In this document: one piece after another, positions 33,484-34,630 of the stretch
How positions within the stretch are numbered: the first letter of the stretch is position 1
Layout: every line of letters starts with the position of its first letter
Assembly: GCF_000423425.1 (NCBI RefSeq)
Contig: NZ_AUHY01000003.1
Location: 1-64,000, forward strand
Direction of reading: 5' to 3'
DNA length: 64,000 nt
Source: Meiothermus rufus DSM 22234
GTDB taxonomy: Bacteria; Deinococcota; Deinococci; Deinococcales; Thermaceae
Made by a program: the position numbers and the translations under genes
Notes under the pieces: generated by a model
What the model was told of the DNA's origin: nothing
Database searches by the model: none
What the model saw: only the letters and a program-made list of their open reading frames with translations

Positions 33484-33510
33484 ATGACCGGGAGGTGGTT
33501 TTTTAGGTAG
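33484..33510 (+). CDS. pheST leader peptide (MTGRWFFR)
   Basis: A short frame of eight codons reads ATG ACC GGG AGG TGG TTT TTT AGG TAG. It has two consecutive Phe codons after a Trp codon and ends directly before a pair of mutually exclusive hairpins upstream of the phenylalanyl-tRNA synthetase genes. The design matches that of amino-acid-responsive attenuators such as the one before E. coli pheST. It is too short to be judged by coding statistics; the evidence is its position and content. Confidence 0.7.
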
Positions 33511-33556
33511 GCCCGCGGGGGATGCCTGTCTCCCGTGGGCGGCCTGTGGGCCGCCC
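33511..33556 (+). promoter_or_regulatory. pheST attenuator: alternative hairpins
   Basis: Segment b (33511-33519, GCCCGCGGG) pairs with segment c (33532-33540, CCCGTGGGC). The tail of c plus the next bases (33537-33544, GGGCGGCC) pairs instead with segment d (33549-33556, GGCCGCCC), followed by CTCGCTTTT. The two stems share 33537-33540 and cannot coexist, giving an antiterminator and a terminator. The U-tract is weak (four T). Confidence 0.68.
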
Positions 33557-33574
33557 CTCGCTTTTGGAGGCTCG

Positions 33575-34630
33575 ATGGATCTAAATCAGGCGCTGGAGCA
33601 AATAGGCAAAGCCCCCACCTTGGAACACCTGCAAGCCCTCAAGGTGCAGTACCTGGGCAAAAACGGCCAGATCACCCAGGCCCTCAAAAGCCTGGGCCAG
33701 CTCCCCCCCGAGGCCCGCCGGGAGCGGGGACAAGAGCTCAACACCTGGAAAAAAGCCCTGGAAGAAGCCCTGCAAACCCGGGAAAAAGAGCTTCGCCAAG
33801 AGGCTCTAAAAGCGCAGCTCGAGCGAGAAACCCTCGATGTCTCGCTGCCTGGCTATGCCTTTCCCGCTGGGGGGCTGCACCTGACCAGCCTGATCCTGGG
33901 AGAACTGGTGAACCTCTTCCGCCGCTTGGGCTTCAGCGTGGTGGAGGGCCCCGAGGTAGAAAGCGAATTCTTCAACTTCGACGCCCTCAACATGCCGGAG
34001 TGGCATCCCGCCCGCGACATGCAAGACACCTTCTGGGTCGACCTAAAGCCCCCCTTCACCCTCCAAGGCCCCCTGGGTGAGACGGTCAACGACCTGGGGG
34101 GTGCGGTGCTGCGCACCCACACCTCGGGCATGCAGATCCGCTATATGATCCAGCACACCCCGCCCTTCCGCATCGTGGTGCCAGGCCGGGTCTTCCGCTA
34201 CGAGCAGACCGATGCCAGCCACGAGGCTATGTTCTATCAGCTCGAGGGCCTGGTAGTGGGGCCCAATATCACCATGGCCGACCTCAAGGGGGCCATTCAC
34301 GAGCTGGCCCGGGGACTCTTCGGCAAGGAGGGCAAGGCCCGTTTCCAGCCCACCTACTTCCCCTTTGTGGAGCCAGGGGCCCAGTTCGCCATGTGGTGGC
34401 CTGAGCGAGGAAAGTGGCTCGAGCTGGGCGGGGCAGGCATGGTGCACCCCTATTTGTTCCGCGCGGTGGACGACTACCGCGCCCGCCAGGGCCTGCCCCG
34501 GGTCTATGAGGGCATGACCGGCTGGGCCTTTGGCATGGGGGTAGAGCGCCTGGCCATTTTGCGCTATGGCATCCCCGACATCCGCTACTTCTACCAAAAC
34601 CGCCTTTCCTTCCTGCGGCAGTTTAGATAA
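33575..34630 (+). CDS. pheS: Phenylalanyl-tRNA synthetase alpha subunit
   Basis: This is the catalytic subunit of the (alpha-beta)2 enzyme that charges tRNA-Phe. The 351-residue protein has an N-terminal coiled coil (about 1-85), class II motif 2 ([19 protein letters not shown]) and motif 3 ([13 protein letters not shown]), and is the length of Thermus PheS. A strong GGAGG lies four bases before the ATG. Expression is probably governed by the attenuator immediately upstream. pheT follows after 11 bases. Confidence 0.96.

Follow-up and report, generated by a model that had tools for sequence, protein, structure and literature searches.

The pheST operon of Meiothermus rufus DSM 22234, found within a stretch of 64,000 nucleotides that was analysed as a whole (here termed the window), is preceded by an eight-codon reading frame with two phenylalanine codons and, directly after its stop codon, by two adjoining hairpins. 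The frame, its Phe codons and the stems are conserved in relatives, the stems with compensatory changes, and their geometry places the first hairpin within reach of a translating ribosome. Taken together, we judge it likely that this arrangement is a ribosome-mediated leader-peptide Phe attenuator of the pheST operon, acting on a nearly leaderless transcript.

A phenylalanine leader and two hairpins upstream of pheST

The features of the region, all on the forward (+) strand, are as follows.

33468..33476, +, putative extended -10 element, TGG-TAGACT (direct reading; assigned from its conservation)
33484..33510, +, leader ORF MTGRWFFR followed by a stop (direct reading and comparison; translation predicted)
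33499..33504, +, regulatory Phe-Phe codons TTT TTT, codons -3 and -2 from the stop (invariant in 20/20 distinct sequences)
33511..33523, +, arm b, the 5' strand of an antiterminator-type hairpin, starting at the base after the stop (folding and covariation)
33528..33540, +, arm c, the 3' strand of b:c, its last 4 bases GGGC (33537-33540) also belonging to the terminator 5' arm
33537..33556, +, c:d, a hairpin of terminator type in which 33537-33544 pairs with 33549-33556 (8 G-C pairs around a 4-nt loop)
33557..33565, +, weak U-tract CTCGCTTTT (sequence scan)
33566..33570, +, GGAGG, Shine-Dalgarno (SD) sequence of pheS (direct reading)
33575..34630, +, pheS, phenylalanine--tRNA ligase alpha subunit, ATG start (NCBIfam TIGR00468, 293.5 bits, cut-off 237.45)
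34642..36996, +, pheT, phenylalanine--tRNA ligase beta subunit, GTG start (NCBIfam TIGR00472, 631.5 bits, cut-off 402.65)

Read directly, 33484-33510 is ATG ACC GGG AGG TGG TTT TTT AGG TAG, and the stop at 33508-33510 stands immediately 5' of the hairpins, as the first-pass annotation of this DNA had described. Genes in the window favour TTC over TTT by 61:29; the leader Phe codons are TTT throughout the Meiothermus group. The codons that precede them (33485-33498; alignment columns 22-30) are G-rich, with an invariant G in the third position (GG.GG.GG) and the rare Arg codon AGG, which suggests a constraint at the level of the RNA in addition to that on the peptide. Programmed frameshifting at the U6 run, which is flanked by an SD-like GGAGG and a hairpin, was set aside because the -1 product varies across relatives, a TAG stop arising only if the next codon is AGG.

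A strict scan of the window for sigma-70-like promoters found none, the -35 region being poor and lacking a good -35 element, so that the promoter assignment relies on the conservation of a -10-type box. In the window, 7 nt separate the end of TAGACT from the leader ATG; most relatives have a spacing of about 7-11 nt, with TAGGCT or TAGACT (a TAGRCT box) at the equivalent site and, in many, TTGACC 5' of the box. Given this 7-nt spacing, the leader transcript is probably near-leaderless, in agreement with what had been suspected from the window alone. The first half of the putative -10 box (33471-33476) is also the TAG stop codon (33471-33473) of the upstream CobD/HisC-like gene.

The first hairpin, b:c, had been proposed with nine pairs; it is present, and folding extends it to 13 contiguous pairs (33511-33523 with 33528-33540), three G-U among them. 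The eight pairs of c:d were confirmed by scan at the positions originally given. As a whole, the element folds better than 200/200 dinucleotide shuffles (z -3.7), and the terminator half by itself is unremarkable (z -1.3, with 21/200 shuffles equally good). The leader is the sole site of the motif GGNGGTTTTTTNGNTAG in the 2.74 Mb genome, and neither pattern search nor a covariance model revealed a second, paralogous copy in the genome.

Distribution and conservation across the phylum

We searched for PheS in 50 genomes of the family Thermaceae, within which the Meiothermus group comprises the non-Thermus members, in three genera (g1, which is Meiothermus, g2 and g3). The element is found 5' of pheS in 21/21 genomes of this group that have readable upstream DNA; G019 lies outside this count, its contig beginning within pheS. 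All 21 carry TTT TTT with a TAG stop two codons on, and TTT TTT is kept in 20/20 distinct sequences. The leaders generally follow the pattern M-x-[RG]-[RG]-W-F-F-[RGS]-stop, although some are longer or otherwise changed, among them MWAWRWFFR, MWRRGRFFR and MRRGGRFFR; what varies is the start region (GTG in G008), the length and the residues preceding Phe, even the Trp. The first-pass annotation had counted Trp as part of the signal, and this had to be given up: Arg takes its place in G006 and G011 and the leaders of a second family, f4, have no Trp, ruling it out as a co-sensed amino acid.

A covariance model built on the Meiothermus-group sequences gave exactly one match per genome, always 5' of pheS. 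On the alignment of the 20 distinct sequences, 99.1% of b:c cells are paired and the covariation score exceeds that of all 500 shuffles, while pairing falls to 45-67% when the partner is slid by 1-3 columns. Six of the 12 aligned b:c pairs are invariant in this alignment and two-sided change is seen at just one. The c:d core is invariant, and because of this is uninformative alone; in the extension at its base (alignment columns 71:92), U-A is replaced by C-G in relatives. Conservation of the Phe codons and of the stems in relatives had been named beforehand as the check to make, and both are retained in all 21 genomes, with compensatory change. It is mainly on account of this conservation in 21/21 genomes that a chance pattern is excluded. 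As the element also recurs, in altered form, in most of the other families examined within the phylum (below), we regard it as almost certain that it is a genuine switch of a known kind.

The U-tract is degenerate in several relatives: both G008 and G014 have CTCTCGTTC, and in G010, with CAAGCCTTG, it is almost absent. In most Meiothermus-group genomes (L082-L089, L093-L095, L098, L099), and not in the window, a second -10-like TAGACT/TAGGCT lies between the terminator and pheS, possibly marking a second, unregulated pheST promoter.

The comparison was extended to 111 genomes of the phylum, in five families, Deinococcus not among them. The covariance model matches four genomes of f4 directly 5' of pheS (E about 1e-4), and a Phe-rich mini leader with FF or FFF stands 5' of pheS in all 13 f4 genomes with usable contigs, whose PheS is about 60-69% identical. 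These leaders, which include MRPYGFFFP, MRAYGFFFSY, MAAFFFP, MRGLFFG and MRPFFFR, start 9-12 nt 3' of a TATACT/TATAGT-type box and are followed, directly after the stop, by a b-type stem. The sequence of the b:c arms is rewritten and their pairing kept, GCGGGAG/CUCUCGC in Meiothermus corresponding to GCGGAAGC/GCUUCCGC or GCGGGAAGC/GCUUCCCGC in f4; the fifth b:c pair changes from G-C to A-U between the families, and in one f4 genome (G067) the foot pair of c:d is A-U, not G-C. This combination of rewritten but paired stems with Phe frames is the strongest evidence that the element functions as an RNA and, at the same time, as a peptide frame.

Families f2, f3 and f5 (L168-L194) have a distinct Phe leader 5' of pheS, built around ..SPF.. 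and the nucleotide motif TTCGCCNTTTA, in which Phe usually stands exactly at codon -3 from the stop. In f5 it is typically MRSLLASPFIT, followed by a stop, or similar, lying 7 nt 3' of a TACACT/TAGACT box; in f3 it is MVNALSPFTRFA or MGTLSPFTS, each ending in a stop; and f2 has longer frames that contain SPF. The single Phe codon of f5 is always TTT and sits exactly at codon -3 from the stop in 17/20 sequences, the exceptions being two with Phe at -5 and -7 and one without a recognisable leader. These families have one hairpin within the leader (GAAGC..GCUUC), one just after the stop in most cases, and then a strong terminator, which is T-rich in f3 and f5, with T7-T8 in many. In leaders of this type the hairpin after the stop shares no bases with the terminator, and in f3 and f5 the latter folds wherever the ribosome stands.

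The leader is absent from 27 upstream regions of the Thermus-like genera g4 and g5 (L102-L128), in which the covariance model likewise had no match. There, pheS starts a few bases 3' of a TATCCTCT-type -10 box and, because this box lies so close to the ATG, pheS itself looks leaderless. Loss in the Thermus-like lineage is the likeliest explanation for the absence.

Ribosome position, hairpin competition and alternative readings

In the attenuator that we propose, transcription would start at the leader ATG or a few bases 5' of it, and a ribosome would load on the nearly leaderless 5' end. When charged tRNA-Phe is ample, this ribosome would reach the UAG and cover b, leaving c free to form c:d, and most transcripts would then end 5' of pheS, presumably by termination at 33565. 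When charged tRNA-Phe is scarce, it would pause, its A site holding a Phe codon and its front edge at about 33511, and b:c would form and take, or sterically crowd, the base of the c:d stem, with RNA polymerase expected to continue into pheST.

To represent the ribosome, 13 nt 5' and 15 nt 3' of the P-site base were masked and partition functions were calculated at 60 C. In this folding model the geometry put forward in the first-pass annotation is borne out, as b begins right after the stop, is open under a Phe stall and is covered with the ribosome at the stop. In the latter state P(b:c) is 0.00 and P(c:d) is 0.98-1.00 in 19/20 Meiothermus-group sequences. When the A site instead holds the first Phe codon, P(b:c) is 0.20-0.99, and P(c:d) remains at 0.67 for the window and at 0.48-1.00 for its relatives, because b:c yields its outer pairs and keeps its inner ones.

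The hairpins share GGGC, an overlap of 4 nt that grows to 6 nt where c:d is extended, and in f4 the helices abut, with 0-1 nt in common; both can therefore form. The strict mutual exclusion that had been assumed is thus not supported, and exclusion at equilibrium is weak in the model. Since the terminator is still allowed under the stall in most species, the step from stall to read-through is one that we infer. Two routes to read-through are conceivable: kinetically, b:c might form while d is still inside the polymerase; sterically, a helix packed directly against the base of the terminator stem might be kept out of the exit channel. Of the original interpretation as a whole, the Phe leader, the geometry, the compensated stems and the cognate gene have stood, while Trp and strict exclusion have not.

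The coexistence of the hairpins at equilibrium, the weak U-tracts of several genomes, the state-independent terminator of f3 and f5 and the negative promoter scan of the window, with its missing -35 box, count against an attenuator. A more far-reaching proposal, in which a minimal near-leaderless Phe attenuator with at least one Phe codon, at -3, would be common to the phylum and read-through would result from crowding of the terminator base, not from exclusive pairing, is tentative and in our view rather unlikely.

It is improbable that the element instead acts on translation, controlling access to the pheS Shine-Dalgarno sequence and not termination. Under such a scheme, c (GUCUCC) would pair with GGAGG at 33566-33570 when b is covered, and the site would be open when b:c has formed. 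Translation is the reported target of other leader-peptide attenuators (PMC13236596), the U-tracts are weak, the pyrimidine-rich c is complementary to GGAGG, and for the window the probability that the SD is unpaired is 0.38 with the ribosome stalled against 0.19 with it at the stop (60 C). When 33 genomes were folded, however, SD exposure proved equal or reversed between the states in many relatives; many also have about 25 nt more between hairpin and SD, and the terminators of f3 and f5 are T-rich. Sequestration of the SD by c was rejected as inconsistent between species.

As long as no ribosome is present, P(c:d) stays below 0.05 in 14/20 sequences, and it rises to 0.3-1.0 with any ribosome. 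This would suit a scheme of translation-dependent termination without Phe sensing, which we rate as less probable again, whereby b:c and a helix between the leader and d block the terminator in naked RNA and any ribosome lifts the block. This long-range leader:d helix (GGUGG with CCGCC) is predicted by RNAalifold, but leaders shuffled at constant composition match d equally well (median shuffle fraction 0.24) and two-sided compensation was not seen, so that the helix was dropped; the scheme moreover leaves unexplained the invariant Phe codons, their recurrence at -3 in other families and the cognate target gene. That the upstream gene simply ends in a constitutive terminator, with a mini-ORF beside it by chance, is hardly credible, for although terminator-like hairpins are not rare in this GC-rich DNA (2 found against 1.5 expected per kb) and the upstream gene is co-directional in the window, the mini-ORF, the Phe codons, the stop position and b:c are kept in 21 genomes and rebuilt in f4, with b directly after the stop in every case.

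Comparison with known attenuators

The Deinococcota branch deeply, consist largely of thermophiles and have many leaderless mRNAs. In E. coli, the pheST leader (pheM) has 14 codons, five of them for Phe. The gamma-proteobacterial pheST operon is cited as a classical case of attenuation in PMC1262725, which also lists classical attenuation of the synthetase genes trpS and leuS in Streptomyces (Actinobacteria). The Meiothermus element resembles that of E. coli in the operon concerned, in having Phe codons in a short leader ORF, in the hairpins between leader and pheS, and in its presumed logic. It differs in its leader of 8 codons with two for Phe, in having almost no 5' UTR, in needing no separate leader hairpin, in its weak U-tract and in the small overlap of b:c with c:d. 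Of the E. coli pheST logic invoked in the first-pass annotation, the Phe leader and the sensing geometry carry over, and the mutually exclusive antiterminator does so only in part, the hairpins overlapping by 4-6 nt in Meiothermus and by 0-1 nt in f4. No sequence relationship to the E. coli pheST attenuator was detected; the window had no Rfam match at gathering thresholds, including to the enterobacterial Phe leader and the T-box, and at E <= 1 only a chance-level P24 match on the opposite strand.

A literature search found no description of such an element for this phylum; a survey of attenuation in amino-acid and aminoacyl-tRNA operons (Lopatovskaya et al. 2010, Mol Biol 44:128), which we know through its citation in PMC4833913, may list some. 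On the evidence above, the element is best filed as a ribosome-mediated leader-peptide attenuator in which the strength of the terminator and an exclusive antiterminator are only partly present.

Leaderless poly-Cys ORFs act as attenuators in mycobacteria and corynebacteria (Canestrari 2020, as cited in PMC13236596). As in those ORFs, the start of the leader studied here probably coincides with the 5' end of the mRNA, and its codons include some for the sensed amino acid. The mycobacterial and corynebacterial ORFs differ in amino acid, phylum and genes, and are described in the citing article as translational, whereas the pheST element is more likely transcriptional.

The element occupies less than 90 nt; its start codon probably lies close to +1, and it has two sensing codons. 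Related leaders manage with one Phe codon and barely competing hairpins, which raises the testable question of the minimum overlap between antiterminator and terminator that suffices. It offers a candidate sensor of Phe-tRNA charging for Meiothermus, together with what is probably a clean natural loss in a Thermus-like genus. With the actinobacterial trpS and leuS leaders it would share leader-peptide attenuation of a synthetase gene outside the Proteobacteria, and it differs from them in the synthetase, in the phylum and in spanning several families of one phylum. It adds a clear comparative case of synthetase-operon leader-peptide attenuation beyond Proteobacteria and Actinobacteria.
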